Source: Clostridium sp. MB40-C1
GTDB lineage: Bacteria; Bacillota; Clostridia; Clostridiales; Clostridiaceae
Assembly: GCF_030913655.1 (NCBI RefSeq)
Contig: NZ_CP133189.1
Coordinates: 3,186,501-3,250,500, forward strand
DNA: 64,000 nucleotides
Direction: 5' to 3'
Position numbers and translations under genes: made by a program. Every line of letters starts with the position of its first letter. The first letter of the stretch is position 1. Below the pieces are notes generated by a model. It made no database searches. It had not been told where the DNA came from and saw only the letters and a list, made by a program, of their open reading frames with translations. Shown piece after piece: positions 9,047-57,014 of this stretch.

Positions 9047-10174
9047 TTAAAATATAGACATATTGTCAGCGTGAATAATTACATCATAAGTCTTATAGCC
9101 TAATTTGTCTTCTATATCATGAGAATCTAAGCCTTTTATCAATTCGATATCATCAGAATTGTAGTTTGAAATACCATGAGCTATTACTTGGTTACTGGTA
9201 TTTAGTATTGCTACTACATCTCCTTGGTCAAAGCTTCCATTTGCGAATAAAATTCCCTTAGGTAGAAGGCTTTTATGACTTTGTATTAAAGCCTCTTCTG
9301 CACCTTCATCTACTATTATATGTCCATTTGTATTTGCACTAAATGCCATCCAGTGTTTTCTAGCTTGAAGAGGATGAGTTTTCCCTTTAAATAAGGTTCC
9401 AACTTCACTACCATTTAATACTTCATTTAAAATATTAGGAGTGCTTCCATCTACAATAACCATAGATGAGCCTGAGTAAGTAGCTATTTTAGCTGCATTA
9501 ATTTTAGTTATCATTCCACCAGTGCCAAGTTTGCTACCGGCATCTCCTGCACAACCCTCTATTTCCTCAGTTATCTCATCTACACATCTAATAAGTTTTG
9601 CATCTGGATTTGTGTTAGGATTAGAATTATATAATCCATCAATATCAGTGAGAAGTATAAGTAAGTCAGCTTCAGATATACTAGCTACCATAGCTGATAA
9701 AGTATCGTTATCTCCAAATTTTATTTCATCTATAGATATAGCATCATTTTCATTTACTATAGGAATAACTCCTTGTTCTAATAGTGCAAAAAAGGTATTA
9801 CGAGCATTTAAGAACCTAGTTCTATGAGATACATCTTCTCTCGTTAATAGTATCTGAGCAGCTATCTTTCCGTATTCAGAAAAAAGTTTTTCATACATAT
9901 GAAGTAAAATACCTTGGCCTACAGCAGCTGCAGCTTGTTTTTGAGGAATTGTTTTTGGTTTTTCTTTAAGGCCTAGTTTACCAATTCCAGCGCCTATTGC
10001 TCCTGAAGATACTAATATAATTTCTATACCTCTATTATGAATATCCGAAATTTGTCTAACTAATTTTTCGATTCTATTTAAATTTAGCAACCCAGTAGAG
10101 TGAGTTAAAGTAGAAGTGCCTACCTTTATTACTACTCTTTTTACATTTTTTAAATAATCTTCTCTATTATTCAT
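9047..10174 (-). CDS. proB: Glutamate 5-kinase with PUA domain
   Basis: First step of proline synthesis, ATP-dependent phosphorylation of glutamate; usually feedback-inhibited by proline. The amino-acid-kinase core begins with [10 protein letters not shown], with SSGAIGAG and the NENDAIS block downstream; [10 protein letters not shown] is the conserved glycine loop. The C-terminal about 90 residues form the PUA domain, making the full-length type (375 residues). The ATG is chosen from homology. No other in-frame start exists nearer the Shine-Dalgarno sequence, which lies about 25 bases upstream with a small hairpin between (see 10182-10196). Operon with proA; divergent from proC. Confidence 0.97.
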
Positions 10175-13621: not shown

Positions 13622-14959
<1,338 letters not shown>

Positions 14960-51658: not shown

Positions 51659-52111
51659 ATGAATATAACAATAATGTGTGTTGGAAAGTTAAAAGAAAAA
51701 TACTTAAAAAAATCAGTAGAAGAGTACACTAAAAAGATAAGAAAATTTGCTAATATAAATATAATAGAGCTTGAAGACGAAAAAACACCAGATAGTGCTT
51801 CTTATAAAGAAGAGATTCTGATAAAGGAAAAAGAGGGAAGTAACATTTTAAGGTATATTAAAGATGATATGTATGTTATAGCTATGGACTTAAATGGAAA
51901 GAGGATAGCTTCAGAAGAGTTTGGCAAAGTTATAAATAATCTAAAGATTAGAGGAATTAATGAGGTTGTGTTCATAATAGGGGGATCTTTAGGATTATCA
52001 AAGCAAGTTATAAGTAGAGCGGATTATAAAGTATGCTTTTCTAAAATGACTTTTCCTCATCAGCTTTTTAGGGTAATGCTTTTAGAACAAATTTATAGAA
52101 GTTTGTTCTAA
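51659..52111 (+). CDS. rlmH: RlmH-type rRNA methyltransferase lacking the C-terminal tail (RlmH1)
   Basis: SPOUT methyltransferase that methylates N3 of pseudouridine 1915 (helix 69) of 23S rRNA. Residues 1-147 match RlmH closely, including the SAM-binding knot FIIGGSLGLS (105-114) and FSKMTFPHQ (127-135). The usual protein is 159 residues and ends YRAFRI-x-RGEPYHK; this one stops at residue 150, after EQIYRSLF. None of the three frames after the stop encodes the missing tail, so this is a real truncation, not a simple frameshift. A terminator follows directly. A divergent paralogue that does have the tail lies at 56497. The enzyme identity is sure; activity alone is doubtful because the tail supplies catalytic contacts. 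Confidence 0.92.
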   Translation: MNITIMCVGKLKEKYLKKSVEEYTKKIRKFANINIIELEDEKTPDSASYKEEILIKEKEGSNILRYIKDDMYVIAMDLNGKRIASEEFGKVINNLKIRGINEVVFIIGGSLGLSKQVISRADYKVCFSKMTFPHQLFRVMLLEQIYRSLF

Positions 52112-52163
52112 AGTGAATTCATAATAATTAGTTAAATAGTGTTTTAATCAAACTAATTTATGA

Positions 52164-52206
52164 TAAGAAATTAATAACACACTCTTATAATTTCTTATTA
52201 TTTTTT
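52164..52206 (+). terminator. Terminator of rlmH1
   Basis: A 10-bp stem (52164-52173 with 52188-52197) is followed by TTATTTTTT. Confidence 0.85.
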
Positions 52207-52207
52207 A

Positions 52208-52283
52208 AATAACAAAACTGTTACTATTTTGTTATTCTTATTCACTATTTTGTAACCATTTTTAAAACCGAGTGTACTATAAT
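52208..52283 (+). promoter_or_regulatory. Promoter region of the O-acetylation operon with two ACTATTTTGT sites
   Basis: ACTATTTTGT occurs at 52223-52232 and 52244-52253, 21 bp (two helical turns) apart; the second is 24 bases before TATAAT (52278-52283). The first site sits inside a hairpin (52208-52217 with 52227-52236). The same 10-mer lies at a similar distance from the -10 of the small peptide gene at 44404. It may be a regulator site or an unusual -35 element. Confidence 0.5.
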
Positions 52284-52351
52284 TTTCATGGCGTGAGAAG
52301 ATTTTATAATAATTTAAAAATTTTGAAACAATTATAATGGTGGGGAAGAGT

Positions 52352-53215
52352 ATGCTTAATAAAAAAACAATAAGAATAAGAGTTAAGAACAATAAGAAAA
52401 AAAAGATAATAAAAATTAACACTAAGAGATTTTTTAAATCAATAATTATATGTATCCTAGTTGTATCTTCTACGGCTATTACAGTAAAAAAATGTATTAT
52501 AAACAAACTTTTTTCAAACGATATGGTTCAAGCTTATGATGTTTCTAACAATAAGGATGTGAAAAAAAGTTTACAAAATAAGGATATAGATAATAAATCT
52601 AGTAATATGGGTTCAATAAGTAAAAAAAGTTTAGAGGGTAAAGAAAGTGGGGAAAAATTATATAGTAACAATAGTTCAAACAATAAGAAAGATATTTTAA
52701 AGGACGCTATATTTTTTGGCGATTCTATTACAGAGAGCTTATCATTTTATGAATTATTAGATGAATCTCAAGTTGTTGGAATAAAGGGTCTTAATGTATT
52801 TAAAGCTGAAAAGCAAATAGACAAGCTAGTACAGTCAAATCCCAAAAAACTTTTTATATTACTAGGAAGCAACGATGTTGAGTCAGGAATGGATAGTAAA
52901 CAATTTGCACAAAACTATAAGAAATTAATGGAAACAATAAAGTTTAAAATGCCTGATTGCAAAGTTTATATTCAATCTATTTTACCAGTTACAGAAAAAG
53001 TTAAGCAGAAGCAACCTAATTTCTCTGATTTGCGCATAAATGAATTTAATGATGTTTTAAAAAAGATTGCAAAAGATAAAAATTTGGAATTTATAAATTT
53101 ATTACCAGTATTAGAAGGAAAGTCTAGTTTATATGAACCAGATGGGATACATTTTAAAACTGGGTTCTATGATTTGTGGATAGATTATTTAAAAAATAAT
53201 TTATCTTTAAATTAA
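52352..53215 (+). CDS. SGNH/GDSL-type hydrolase, membrane-anchored
   Basis: Surface esterase/acyltransferase-type enzyme of 287 residues. A very basic N-terminus is followed by one membrane helix (about 27-45) and a Ser/Asn/Lys-rich linker. The SGNH blocks are present: FGDSITES (nucleophile Ser near residue 126), LLGSND and DGIHF near the C-terminus. The neighbours are an MBOAT acyltransferase and a DHHW protein, so it most likely works on O-acetyl groups of a cell-surface polymer. I chose ATG 52352, behind GGTGGGG. Confidence 0.85.
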   Translation: MLNKKTIRIRVKNNKKKKIIKINTKRFFKSIIICILVVSSTAITVKKCIINKLFSNDMVQAYDVSNNKDVKKSLQNKDIDNKSSNMGSISKKSLEGKESGEKLYSNNSSNNKKDILKDAIFFGDSITESLSFYELLDESQVVGIKGLNVFKAEKQIDKLVQSNPKKLFILLGSNDVESGMDSKQFAQNYKKLMETIKFKMPDCKVYIQSILPVTEKVKQKQPNFSDLRINEFNDVLKKIAKDKNLEFINLLPVLEGKSSLYEPDGIHFKTGFYDLWIDYLKNNLSLN

Positions 53216-53237
53216 ACATATAAAAGGAGAAAAAACT

Positions 53238-53735
53238 ATGCTGAACGCAATGAAAAAGATCAACAAAAAATTAATTATTATTACTGGAGTATTTGTTTTT
53301 ACAGTGGCAGCTTTTGCAGGATGTTCATCTTCAAAATCATCTTCTAAAAGTCCAGAAGTAAGTAAAATTGTAGAAGAAATGAAGGGATCAATTGATGAAT
53401 CTAATATGAAGAAGGTAGGTGAGGACAAACTTAAAAAGCTATACAAAATTAATCCAGATGAACTAGAAGAGTTTGTTGTGTATGCACCTGCTACAAATCT
53501 TAAAGCTAATGAGTTAGCAGTATTAAAAGTTAAGGATGCAAGTAAGGTGGAGAGCATTAAAGATCAAATATCAAAAAGAGTAGAGAAACAAGCATCTAGT
53601 TTTAAGGATTACCTTCCTGATGAATATTATTTAATAGAAAAACATGTATTAAAAACTCAGGGTAATTACATTCTTTTATCTATATCAAAAGATTCAGACA
53701 AAATAGAATCTGTATTCAATAAAGCTTTTAAATAG
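53238..53735 (+). CDS. DUF4358 lipoprotein
   Basis: A 165-residue lipoprotein. Signal peptide with lipobox AFAGC (Cys near 29), a Ser/Lys-rich linker, then the DUF4358 domain (EEFVVYAPATNLKANELAVLKVKD). DUF4358 proteins often accompany MBOAT/DHHW genes in clostridia; their role is unknown. It starts at ATG 53238 behind AAGGAGA, 22 bases after the SGNH gene, so it is in the same operon. Confidence 0.85.
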   Translation: MLNAMKKINKKLIIITGVFVFTVAAFAGCSSSKSSSKSPEVSKIVEEMKGSIDESNMKKVGEDKLKKLYKINPDELEEFVVYAPATNLKANELAVLKVKDASKVESIKDQISKRVEKQASSFKDYLPDEYYLIEKHVLKTQGNYILLSISKDSDKIESVFNKAFK

Positions 53736-53771
53736 GCATAAATAAATTGATTCCTTTGGGGGTGGACTAAA

Positions 53772-55178
53772 TTGGTTTTCAGTAGCTTGATATTTATCTT
53801 TTTATTTTTGCCTATAACTATTGCTATATACTACATAGCACCTAAATTTCTTAGAAATTTTATTTTATTTTTGGCAAGTCTTGTTTTTTATGCTTGGGGA
53901 GAGCCGGTATATATTTTAATAATGTTGTTTTCAACAGTTTTTGATTATATAAATGCACTACTTATTGATAAATATAGACATAAAAAATTAATTCCTAAAT
54001 TAGTTTTTATAAATTCGGTAGTTGTAAATTTAGGAATACTTAGCTTTTTCAAATATTATAATTTTTTCATTGGAAATGTTAATGATTTGTTTGGATTAAG
54101 TATTGCCTCTCAAAAACTTCCGTTACCTGTGGGCATATCTTTTTATACATTTCAAACAATGTCTTATGTAATTGATGTTTATCGAAATAAAGTAGAGGTG
54201 CAAAGAAATATTATATCCTTTGGAACATATGTAACTATGTTTCCTCAGCTTGTTGCAGGTCCTATAGTTAAATATGGAGATATTTCTAAACAAATTAATA
54301 GTAGGAGAGAAAGCTTTGATAAGTTTGGAGAAGGAGCAGAACTATTTATAATAGGACTTTCTAAGAAAGTAATTCTTGCTAATAATATAGGCATACTTTG
54401 GGATAGTGTTAAGGCTACTCCAATAAGTCAGCTTTCCGTGCTTTCAGCTTGGCTTGGAGTAATTGCCTTTACATTTCAAATTTATTTTGATTTTAGTGGA
54501 TATTCAGATATGGCTTTAGGTCTTGGTAAGATGTTTGGATTTGATCTTATGATAAATTTTAATTATCCATATATATCAAAAAGTGTAACAGAATTTTGGC
54601 GTAGATGGCATATTTCATTAGGATCATGGTTTAGAGAATATGTTTATATTCCTCTTGGAGGAAATAAGAATGGAAGTTTAAAGCAGTATAGAAATTTATT
54701 TATAGTATGGTTGCTTACGGGGTTGTGGCATGGAGCAAACTGGAATTTTATATTTTGGGGACTATACTTCGGAGTTTTAGTAACTATAGAAAAGATATTT
54801 CTTTTAAGATGGCTCAATAAAATTCCTAAACTTGCAAGCAGAATATATACTATGATTATAGTTATTGTGGGATGGGCTATTTTTGATATTGAAAATATAA
54901 CACAATGTGGAAAATTCATTAAAACTATGTTTGGATTTAATGGTAATGTACTATTGGATAAGAAATCTCTATATTATTTGTCTAGTAATATTATTCTATT
55001 TATAATTCTAATAATTTGTTCTACCCCTATTCCTAAAAGAATTATAAATAGTATGAAAAAAAGGTTTAAAATTACTGGGACTATATCAGTTTCTATGATA
55101 AATATTTTACTAGTATTTACTGCTACCGCTTATTTAGTTAATGAGAGTTATAATCCTTTTCTATATTTTAGATTCTGA
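53772..55178 (+). CDS. MBOAT-family O-acyltransferase (AlgI/DltB-like)
   Basis: A 468-residue membrane protein with about ten hydrophobic helices that moves an acyl group across the membrane for O-acetylation of a surface glycan. LPVGISFYTFQTMSYVIDVYR and the catalytic His in LTGLWHGANWNFIFWG identify the AlgI branch. The TTG start lies behind GGGGGTGG. The polymer acetylated cannot be told: no alginate or teichoic-acid genes are in the window. Third gene of the operon. Confidence 0.93.
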   Translation: MVFSSLIFIFLFLPITIAIYYIAPKFLRNFILFLASLVFYAWGEPVYILIMLFSTVFDYINALLIDKYRHKKLIPKLVFINSVVVNLGILSFFKYYNFFIGNVNDLFGLSIASQKLPLPVGISFYTFQTMSYVIDVYRNKVEVQRNIISFGTYVTMFPQLVAGPIVKYGDISKQINSRRESFDKFGEGAELFIIGLSKKVILANNIGILWDSVKATPISQLSVLSAWLGVIAFTFQIYFDFSGYSDMALGLGKMFGFDLMINFNYPYISKSVTEFWRRWHISLGSWFREYVYIPLGGNKNGSLKQYRNLFIVWLLTGLWHGANWNFIFWGLYFGVLVTIEKIFLLRWLNKIPKLASRIYTMIIVIVGWAIFDIENITQCGKFIKTMFGFNGNVLLDKKSLYYLSSNIILFIILIICSTPIPKRIINSMKKRFKITGTISVSMINILLVFTATAYLVNESYNPFLYFRF

Positions 55179-55216
55179 TATTATGATGTATAGGGCATTT
55201 GAAAGAGGTGTTGTTC

Positions 55217-56392
55217 TTGGAGAAACGTAATAATTTATGCAGGTGGATAGTAGGAATATTTTTGATACTTTATATATTTGGTATGTTATTATTTAATATA
55301 TTGAATCCAAGCAAAGAGTTTTCAGAATCTGAAAATAGGAAACTTGAGCAGAAACCACAATTTTCTTTAAATAGTTTGTTGGAGGGAAAATTTACTAAAA
55401 ACTATGAAAAGTATATATCGGATCAATTTTTTTTAAGGGATTTTTGGATAGGGGTAAAATCAAGTGGAGAAAGACTTATGGGAAAAAAAGAGAACAATGG
55501 AGTATATTTAGGAAAAGATGGTTATTTATTTCAAAAGTTTAATAAACCTGAAAAAAACAAAATTCAAGATATAATAGAAGCTATTAATTCATTTTCCTCT
55601 TTAAATACTGAAGTAAATAAATATCTTATGGTTGTTCCTAATTCAACAAAGGTTCTAGAAGAAAAGCTTCCTTCTTTTGCATGTGATGAAGATCAAATTA
55701 TGTATATTAATAAGTTAAAAAAATATATAAAAAAAGATGTGAAGTTTGTAGATGTATATAATGAACTACTATCTAAAAAAGATGAATACATATTTTATAA
55801 AACGGACCATCATTGGACAACTAAAGGGGCATATTATGCTTATAAGAAATTAATCAAAGATATGGGGTTCATTCCTCATAAAGAAGAGTATTTTAATGTT
55901 AAGAATGTTACTAATAGTTTTTATGGTTCTCTATATTCTAAAAGTGGATTTAGAAATATAGAACCGGATAGTATACAAATTTATACACCTAAAATCAATG
56001 AAAATTCTAAGGTTTGGTATTATGATAAGATGAGAGATGGGAACAAAGACAAAACAGTGGACAAGAGTAAAGAGTATGATACCATTTATAAAATCGAGAA
56101 TATAAATAAAAAGGATAAGTACACTATATTTTTTAATGGAAATCATTCTTTAGTAAAGATAAACAGCGATACAAAAACTAATAAAAAATTATTAGTGGTA
56201 AAGGATTCTTACGCTAATTGTTTAATTCCATTTTTAACAGGACATTATGATGAAATATATGTAGTAGATCTTAGATATTATAGTGAAAATTTACAAAAAC
56301 TAATAAAATCTAATAGGATAAATGATGTTCTAATACTTTATAATGCAAAGTCTTTTTTTGAAGATGATTCAATTAATAATATTTGTGAATAA
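55217..56392 (+). CDS. DHHW-family protein (AlgJ/AlgX-like)
   Basis: A signal-anchored SGNH-like protein thought to take the acyl group from the MBOAT protein and place it on the glycan. One N-terminal membrane helix (about residues 9-27), then the domain with the signature TDHHWTTKGAYYAYK. The frame opens with a TTG at 55199, but AGAGGTG is better placed for the in-frame TTG at 55217 (391 residues). Fourth gene of the operon; no terminator is obvious before rlmH2, 104 bases downstream. Confidence 0.85.
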   Translation: MEKRNNLCRWIVGIFLILYIFGMLLFNILNPSKEFSESENRKLEQKPQFSLNSLLEGKFTKNYEKYISDQFFLRDFWIGVKSSGERLMGKKENNGVYLGKDGYLFQKFNKPEKNKIQDIIEAINSFSSLNTEVNKYLMVVPNSTKVLEEKLPSFACDEDQIMYINKLKKYIKKDVKFVDVYNELLSKKDEYIFYKTDHHWTTKGAYYAYKKLIKDMGFIPHKEEYFNVKNVTNSFYGSLYSKSGFRNIEPDSIQIYTPKINENSKVWYYDKMRDGNKDKTVDKSKEYDTIYKIENINKKDKYTIFFNGNHSLVKINSDTKTNKKLLVVKDSYANCLIPFLTGHYDEIYVVDLRYYSENLQKLIKSNRINDVLILYNAKSFFEDDSINNICE

Positions 56393-56496
56393 ATAGTGTT
56401 ATAGAGTTACTTAGCTTAAGTTTATTGAGAATTGAAGTATTAGTAGTGATAGATATGGAATAAATTTTGAATTTAATAAGTTTTAAAGGTGAAGAG

Positions 56497-56916
56497 ATGA
56501 ATATTAATATAATAAATACTGAAAAGATTACAGAAAAATTTGCAAAAGAAGCAGTACAAGAATATACAAAAAGGTTATCTAGGTATTGTAAGTTAAAGTA
56601 TCTAGAAGTTAAAAATGAAAATCAACTTTTAAAAGAAATAGGGGATAGAACATATCTTATTTTGCTAAATTATAAAGGAGAAAATATATCCTCAGAAGAA
56701 TTTGCAAACAAAATTAATGACCTTGGGATAAAGGGAAGTAGTAATATAACAATACTAATTTGCAATACAGATTTACCACAAGAAGTTGCTGAAAAAGTTA
56801 GTTTTCATATGAGTATATCTCAAATGGAAATGGATATAAATGTATTAGGCATGGCTTTATATGAACAAATTTATAGAGCATATAGGATTATGAATGGTGA
56901 ACCGTACCATAAGTAA
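56497..56916 (+). CDS. Divergent RlmH paralogue lacking the SAM-knot motifs (RlmH2)
   Basis: A 139-residue protein clearly related to RlmH at both ends: EAVQEYTKRLSRYCKLKYLEVKN near the start, and at the end LYEQIYRAYRIMNGEPYHK, the C-terminal tail that is absent from RlmH1. Its middle is degenerate: GGS-x-GL of the knot is ICNTDLP (88-94) and FSKMTFPHQ is ISQMEMDIN (107-115), and about 15 residues of the central region are missing. It cannot be expected to bind SAM in the normal way. The reading frame is intact, with AAAGGTGA before ATG 56497, which argues for a maintained function, perhaps with RlmH1. Confidence 0.85.
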   Translation: MNINIINTEKITEKFAKEAVQEYTKRLSRYCKLKYLEVKNENQLLKEIGDRTYLILLNYKGENISSEEFANKINDLGIKGSSNITILICNTDLPQEVAEKVSFHMSISQMEMDINVLGMALYEQIYRAYRIMNGEPYHK

Positions 56917-57014
56917 ATGCAAAAAATAGCTTTAGACATTGATATAACTTATAATAGTATATATCTGAAAAATATATATGTATAAGTTTTGTGATTTATC
57001 TTGGAGGTATATCA

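Follow-up and report, generated by a model that had tools for sequence, protein, structure and literature searches.

RlmH (also YbeA or OrfX; PF02590, TIGR00246), the methyltransferase of 3-methylpseudouridine 1915 (m3Psi1915) in 23S rRNA, is known as a homodimer in which each chain carries both halves of the active site. In the Escherichia coli study of Koh et al. 2017 (PMC5430550), one monomer supplies the S-adenosylmethionine (SAM) pocket together with K11, K42 and R43, and the other supplies R25, R26, R142, R154 and the C-terminal tail. In the same study, E138, Y152, H153 and R154 are described as essential, the variants Y152F, H153F and R154A are all inactive, one SAM site is filled (5.6 uM) and the second is empty below 500 uM, the general base is left open, and some orthologues are said to end at H153. 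We analyzed a stretch of 64,000 nucleotides from Clostridium sp. MB40-C1 (contig NZ_CP133189.1, positions 3,186,501 to 3,250,500; hereafter the window), which encodes two RlmH paralogues, denoted as RlmH1 and RlmH2, with one half per chain. The division of residues between the two proteins follows the asymmetry published for the active site of E. coli RlmH. Based on sequence comparison, we consider it highly probable that RlmH1 and RlmH2 form one heterodimeric 23S rRNA m3Psi1915 methyltransferase, in which the dimer, its catalysis and its target are all predicted.

The proteins mt-LAF5 and mt-LAF6 of Trypanosoma brucei belong to another SPOUT branch. In two reports (PMC8316566, PMC12123411), they are likewise two SPOUT proteins that form a heterodimer on the large subunit of the mitoribosome, but they act in a eukaryotic mitochondrion, at the A-loop/H92 and not at helix 69, and are not RlmH. 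Yeast Ymr310c/Ygr283c is a further case in which an active SPOUT protein may pair with a diverged relative: a 2007 paper (PMC1829167) suggests a possible heterodimer with an inactive subunit, which is a suggestion only and concerns the COG2106 family, not RlmH. Outside the SPOUT fold, METTL3-METTL14 and DNMT3-DNMT3L combine an active enzyme with a catalytically dead paralogue that is needed or regulates (PMC10908127), and AdoMetDC-prozyme similarly pairs an active enzyme with a paralogue lacking its own catalytic site. The folds of these three pairs are unrelated to that of RlmH and their inactive partners scaffold or activate, whereas in the window catalytic residues that are essential would reside on the partner without a SAM site. 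A bacterial SPOUT heterodimer would be undescribed, as far as open-licence literature goes.

RlmH1 resembles known RlmH proteins in fold, SAM pocket and genomic place, and RlmH2 resembles them in fold, catalytic tail and RNA-facing charges. The original prediction held that RlmH1 keeps the SAM knot without the catalytic tail and that RlmH2 has a perfect tail without the knot motifs, and the translations bear out both statements. RlmH1 lacks the Tyr-His-Arg/Lys tail, and a GEPYHK tail was encoded in none of the three forward frames after RlmH1, read down to 52210-52212. RlmH2 lacks the SAM bights (GGxxG and the PH motif), and about 16 residues (43-58 of Bacillus subtilis RlmH) are deleted from it, a feature absent from the original prediction. 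Both proteins score above the cut-off of the PF02590 profile, RlmH1 with 170.6 bits and RlmH2 with 106.6 bits. With the NCBIfam models, RlmH1 reached 213.4 bits for NF000985 (cut-off 172) and 142.5 bits for TIGR00246 (cut-off 149.7), and RlmH2 remained below both cut-offs with 116.4 and 71.6 bits, respectively. Modeled as single chains with AlphaFold2, both gave confident RlmH-type SPOUT folds.

To compare the residues by role, we tallied 32 RlmH1 sequences (31 paired ones and that of genome G195) and 32 RlmH2 sequences. The SAM-side residues G108, S110, G112 and H134 are each present in 32/32 RlmH1, and in 15/32, 0/32, 0/32 and 0/32 RlmH2, respectively. Conversely, positions 25, 26 and 147 (E. 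coli R142) are basic in all RlmH2 and in 15/32, 16/32 and 18/32 RlmH1, which has drifted at K25, R26, Y146 and R147. The Glu at position 143 (E. coli E138) is found in 31/32 RlmH2 and 24/32 RlmH1, and the K42 position is basic in 22/32 RlmH1 and 2/32 RlmH2. Thirty-one RlmH2 have the Tyr, His and Lys of the tail, the remaining one, of G170, being cut by the contig end before the tail, and His at position 158 is found in none of the 32 RlmH1. Over 42 core positions, which are those conserved in full-length RlmH, retention in RlmH1 and RlmH2 was anticorrelated (Spearman -0.72, p 7e-8, with positions and sequences non-independent). RlmH1 and RlmH2 are thus two paralogous chains with complementary active-site residues, as a heterodimeric SPOUT enzyme calls for. 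Pocket and interface hydrophobicity is kept in all RlmH2 at four of five positions, which fits an RlmH2 that has lost SAM binding but not docking. In the proposed enzyme, RlmH1 would supply the SAM pocket with its knot as well as the charges on the SAM side, and RlmH2, having no SAM-binding motifs, would dock via the same kind of interface and supply Glu138, Arg142, Lys25/Arg26 and, from its C-terminus, the Tyr, His and Lys of the tail. Such a heterodimer would have one working active site instead of two.

The host genome is closed, a single contig of 3,893,327 bases, in which RlmH1 and RlmH2 are the only matches above the PF02590 cut-off. A third, full-length rlmH was sought there and none was found above this cut-off; a third match is sub-threshold (17.3 bits, E 0.009) and covers profile positions 65-129 within a 247-amino-acid frame. 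Sequencing error, which the original prediction had named as a possible cause of the missing RlmH1 tail, is ruled out because G003, another genome of the same genus group, carries the same truncated pair, its RlmH1 ending in EQIYRNLL-stop. The prediction had also argued against simple decay, and both genes are indeed intact and evolve under purifying selection. The ratios of nonsynonymous to synonymous substitution rates (dN/dS; Nei-Gojobori counts, our own script) for RlmH1 and RlmH2 were 0.145 and 0.091 between G000 and G003, and 0.074 and 0.076 between G193 and G194. The ratio for RlmH1 of G192 and G195 was 0.222, and the G187/G188 comparison was saturated. The conserved 23S rRNA target sequence is unchanged at 9 places of the host genome. 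Judged from these sequences, the complementary split of RlmH1 and RlmH2 is very well supported.

The pair is not confined to the window. Among the eight genomes of the genus group, G003 shares the pair, and a single full-length gene is present in six. In Clostridiaceae, 18 of 206 genomes carry RlmH2 (G000, G003, G090, G119, G121, G140, G170, G171, G172, G185-G189, G192-G194 and G205), and all 18 carry a tail-less RlmH1. The listed Clostridiaceae matches (150, in 149 genomes as counted by hand) all reach profile position 154, no RlmH2 is among the matches of those genomes, and a second copy or fragment is present in four of these genomes (G042, G077, G157 and G196). Nine of the 206 genomes, several of them incomplete, have no rlmH match above the cut-off. 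Class-wide (391 genomes, 19 of the same family), eight further RlmH2 genomes were found among the best 30 loci, and seven of them have a tail-less RlmH1, with none found in G369. Phylum-wide (398 genomes), where match length (~395-405 nt) served to select RlmH2, and PF02590 and reading to confirm it, six more genomes were added, all with a tail-less RlmH1; the tails are intact in four full-length relatives that were examined alongside. Overall, a tail-less RlmH1 accompanies RlmH2 in 31 of the 32 genomes in which RlmH2 was found, and in none of the 32 is there a full-length RlmH. The co-occurrence exceeds chance, as the original prediction expected of two dependent halves. These counts omit five Clostridiaceae genomes in which rlmH runs off the contig end (G044, G064, G067, G198 and G199) and G013 with a frameshifted rlmH. 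G042, G067 and G198 have tail fragments on further contigs; these fragments contain the knot motifs and belong to ordinary rlmH. Regarding spacing, 18 of the 31 pairs lie within 500 bp, convergent or in tandem, 7 are 4 to 118 kb apart, and 6 are on different contigs.

The history of the two proteins was analyzed with quick trees on 131-147 columns. In the earlier tree, 23 of 26 RlmH2 grouped together, with the long-branched sequences of G170-G172 outside the clade, and in the later tree, which has six more pairs, all 32 RlmH2 formed one clade with a Shimodaira-Hasegawa-like approximate likelihood ratio test (SH-aLRT) support of 99.8. This clade spans many families. A single clade of tail-less RlmH1, on the other hand, was rejected by the approximately unbiased (AU) test (p = 0.000645), and tail loss took 6 changes in the tree without RlmH2 and 7 or 10 in others, of which the starred branches force just three. 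Considering that RlmH2 is one clade and that tails were lost several times, the pair is not a private duplication, and the part of the original prediction in which a gene duplicated in this lineage and each copy kept one half does not hold. From these trees, a single origin of RlmH2 and several tail losses are most likely, and RlmH2 resembles an old, probably mobile partner of resident RlmH proteins that repeatedly lost their tails. In G140, RlmH1 groups with five full-length proteins from the genus group to which G140 belongs (SH-aLRT 97), while its RlmH2 is sister to that of G285, a member of another family (SH-aLRT 99), with 85.9% DNA identity over 412 bases. By blastn, the RlmH1 genes of G140 and G285 align over just 58 bases, at the junction described below. 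The closeness of RlmH2 together with the distance of RlmH1 indicates horizontal spread of RlmH2. A tree with RlmH1 of G140 and G285 as sisters was not rejected (AU p 0.189), although the synonymous sites of these two RlmH1 genes were saturated.

Several observations weigh against a heterodimer. One half without the other, which the original prediction regarded as damaging if frequent, was seen only in two incomplete assemblies: G195 (82% complete, 560 contigs) has a tail-less RlmH1 with RlmH2 not found, and G369 (92% complete, 220 contigs) has RlmH2 at a contig edge with RlmH1 not found. A very divergent or cut RlmH2 can escape the profile search, and RlmH2 of G170 was found by reading the locus and was not among the PF02590 matches. 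Besides, 22 single-match Clostridiaceae genomes lie outside the listed matches whose tails were read. Since the genomes are related, the co-occurrence rests on several events and not on 31; independent events number at least 3 by the starred branches and 6-10 by parsimony. The split is also incomplete, as RlmH1 keeps the E138 Glu in 24/32 and a basic R142 position in 18/32 sequences, and the interface position I74 is hydrophobic in just 6/32 RlmH2. dN/dS is higher in G170/G172 (0.50 for RlmH1 and 0.29 for RlmH2), and the AlphaFold2 models lean to the RlmH fold because the alignments consist mostly of full-length RlmH.

Alternative explanations were weighed against the same data. It seems unlikely that the heterodimer is real but has turned to another nucleotide or a further partner; the long RlmH2 branches and the deletion of residues 43-58, which adjoins the K42/R43 positions, would fit such a change, but the R25/R26/R154-type charges and the catalytic end are kept and the 23S target sequence is unchanged in the host. 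It is about as unlikely that RlmH1 is an inactive relic and RlmH2 a non-catalytic ribosome-binding protein with a new role, in an organism without m3Psi1915. Each protein alone does lack residues that are essential or needed for SAM, and the nine Clostridiaceae genomes without a match above the cut-off could be read in the same way. However, a SAM pocket kept in every RlmH1 with a dN/dS of 0.145, an RlmH2 that keeps exactly the tail-side catalytic residues including Tyr, His and Lys, and co-occurrence in 31 of 32 genomes would all be unexpected. We give very little weight to RlmH1 homodimers that methylate with another general base, RlmH2 being only a regulator or decoy: the E. coli paper leaves room for this with its open general base and its orthologues ending at H153, but the inactivity of Y152F, H153F and R154A in the same text (PMC5430550), the RlmH1 drift at K25, R26, Y146 and R147, positions whose conservation one would expect in a self-sufficient homodimer, and the finding that G195 alone among the genomes read has RlmH1-like tail loss without RlmH2 speak against it. 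The least credible account, in which a gene simply duplicated in this lineage and a copy then decayed or was misread in sequencing, can point to decayed second copies (G077, G196) and frameshifted single copies (G013, G335) elsewhere, but is contradicted by the truncated ends shared with G003, by purifying selection on both genes and by an RlmH2 clade that crosses many families. Taken all together, a heterodimer of RlmH1 and RlmH2 with the usual target seems to be the simplest account of the complementary split.

Some loci deserve separate mention. In G090 (L127), the RlmH1 stop codon is followed by a recognizable remnant of the tail codons and an adjoining, convergent RlmH2, which looks like a recent stage of tail loss. 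The genomes G172, G170 and G171 (L144, L145 and L146) are 1.5-1.7 Mb in size, their RlmH1 and RlmH2 are fast-evolving and overlap or abut, and their RlmH1 is also shortened at residues 43-58. G157 has two full-length rlmH copies 10 kb apart (C19:4184-4657 and 14174-14647). In G504 (L222), a single rlmH is cut after about residue 118 and RlmH2 was not found; because bight 3 is gone too, this is ordinary gene loss, unlike RlmH1.

SCCmec (staphylococcal cassette chromosome mec) and other elements integrate at the 3' end of rlmH/orfX, the position of their attB. The G140 locus shares the target gene and the tail codons with such SCC-like elements. Its rlmH frame stops after GEP, with other sequence in place of the tail codons, and the first 40 bases of this replacement recur at the same codon in G285 with 2 mismatches. 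A 706-amino-acid large serine recombinase (Resolvase and Recombinase domains) starts 88 bp past the truncated rlmH, so that, as in SCC-like elements, a junction inside the tail codons has a site-specific recombinase beside it. Past the recombinase come a phage-integrase-family protein and genes resembling, on reading, those of a type I restriction system, and RlmH2 lies ~13 kb away. The left-end motif occurs in 1 of the 13 genomes of the G140 genus group, and ten relatives taken from that group all have intact tails. When the G140 locus was compared with relatives by blastn, rlmH and upstream DNA matched and the stretch past RlmH2 did not. At the protein level, the 39 kb past RlmH2 gave transporter-like matches to stretches of seven relatives, with one clear match: the gene at G140 127928-128443 is 85% identical to G143 106671-107183 and lies downstream of rlmH in both, so the right flank may be syntenic in part. 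In G285, the sole member of its genus in the collection, the G140 recombinase had no match in the RlmH1-RlmH2 interval, which is partly masked and contains other genes.

The G140 and G285 junctions make it likely that a mobile element integrated at the rlmH tail codons and truncated the host enzyme. Integration would cut host RlmH just before the essential tyrosine, and the element-borne RlmH2 would restore the lost tail in trans. SCC-like elements seem to retain a tail in cis, to judge by the repeats in G131 and G143. At the junctions of G140 and G285, by contrast, the host enzyme has been left without a tail, and it is a separate RlmH2 that has one. The RlmH2 tail possibly consists of the displaced tail codons of the host, captured at the far junction, or it may have arrived on the element; no displaced host tail was found in G140 111.5-169.4 kb with the patterns used, and G140/G285 RlmH2 homology continues through the tail codons to the stop. 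The recombinase would later be lost and the split enzyme would remain fixed. Our tentative view, held at a little under even confidence, is that RlmH2 began on an element integrating in the rlmH tail codons, which made the host enzyme an element-dependent heterodimer. The pair in the window would then be a late, fixed stage with no recombinase remaining. No recombinase was found in window positions 52112-56496, where the four scanned open reading frames are SGNH, DUF4358, MBOAT and DHHW; tblastn of the G140 recombinase gave no match in the window, and window 51-58 kb does not contain the G140 left-end motif, the best alignment there having 11 mismatches of 26.

Mobile DNA was also searched directly. 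When RlmH2 was compared by tblastn with plasmids and phages (21 and 23 records, respectively), all matches were under 60% identity, and those listed (15 each) were at 37.2% or less; the annotated plasmid ones are called rlmH and the phage records carry no annotation. Plasmid or phage carriage of RlmH2 was rejected on these low identities and the plasmid annotations. In IMG/VR, three loci were read as an ordinary rlmH and two rlmH tail fragments, and a search there for the first 20 bases of the G140 left-end motif gave no hit. The two fragments, which are rlmH 3' ends on the viral contigs L282 and L283, lie 6.6 and 0.5 kb from a serine recombinase, which suggests that phages integrate at rlmH carrying a replacement 3' end. 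G131 and G143 have a second copy of the tail codons and DNA beyond, 4.5-5.3 kb past an intact rlmH, likely left by SCC-like elements at rlmH in a clostridial genus. Serine recombinase genes are convergent with an intact rlmH, ~0.5 kb away, in G005 (L009/L279) and G077 (L123), and G077 has a decayed second rlmH ~35 kb from the intact one.

In the window, RlmH1 stands at the ancestral locus, with the same gene order around rlmH in G001 and G002. The genes upstream of it are a putative walJ-like gene and a putative SEC-C gene. The SGNH-DUF4358-MBOAT-DHHW block between RlmH1 and RlmH2 is kept in G003 and had no match in 19 kb around rlmH of G001 and G002; it is possible that the block is cargo. 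A MerR gene directly follows RlmH2 in the window; compared with the short stretch 56917-56990 there, G003 (L041 8420-15585) has ~7 kb between RlmH2 and the MerR gene, with a phosphotransferase system (PTS)-type regulator, a glycosidase and PTS genes by reading.

Table 1. Positions of the RlmH1/RlmH2 features in the window, and of tail-codon repeats in two other genomes.
Feature	Position	Strand	Remarks
RlmH1	51659..52111	+	150 aa (amino acids), tail-less RlmH, proposed SAM-binding subunit
RlmH1 bight 2 glycine motif GGSLG	51980..51994	+	kept; matches E. coli 103GGPEG107
RlmH1 bight 3 FSKMTFPHQ	52037..52063	+	kept; spans E. coli H129 position
RlmH1 shortened C-terminus EQIYRSLF-stop	52085..52111	+	Tyr152/His153/Arg154 equivalents absent
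Block between RlmH1 and RlmH2	52337..56392	+	four open reading frames
SGNH/GDSL hydrolase	52337-53215	+	
DUF4358 protein	53238-53735	+	
MBOAT	53772-55178	+	
DHHW/AlgX-like	55199-56392	+	
RlmH2	56497..56916	+	139 aa, proposed tail-donating subunit, knot motifs lost, residues 43-58 deleted
RlmH2 Lys25-Arg26	56569..56574	+	E. coli R25/R26, RNA-facing charges of tail-donating monomer; basic in 32/32 RlmH2
RlmH2 degenerate bight 2 ICNTDLP	56758..56778	+	
RlmH2 degenerate bight 3 ISQMEMDIN	56815..56841	+	hydrophobic at E. coli L122, L125, L127 positions
RlmH2 catalytic end EQIYRAYRIMNGEPYHK	56863..56913	+	E138, R142, Y152, H153, R154 equivalents
Tail-codon repeats, G131 (L257)	near 9254 and 14545		
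Tail-codon repeats, G143 (L261)	near 9101 and 4636		

The RlmH homodimer has two SAM sites of which one is apparently used, a standing structural question for which the pair would offer a natural experiment. A lineage with separated roles would show that one site suffices and would assign residues to roles without mutagenesis. How such a split can begin is suggested by the junctions in G140 and G285: an element would break the host enzyme and supply a partner subunit that rescues it. If this is true, one recombination event would turn a homodimeric housekeeping enzyme into an element-dependent heterodimer.

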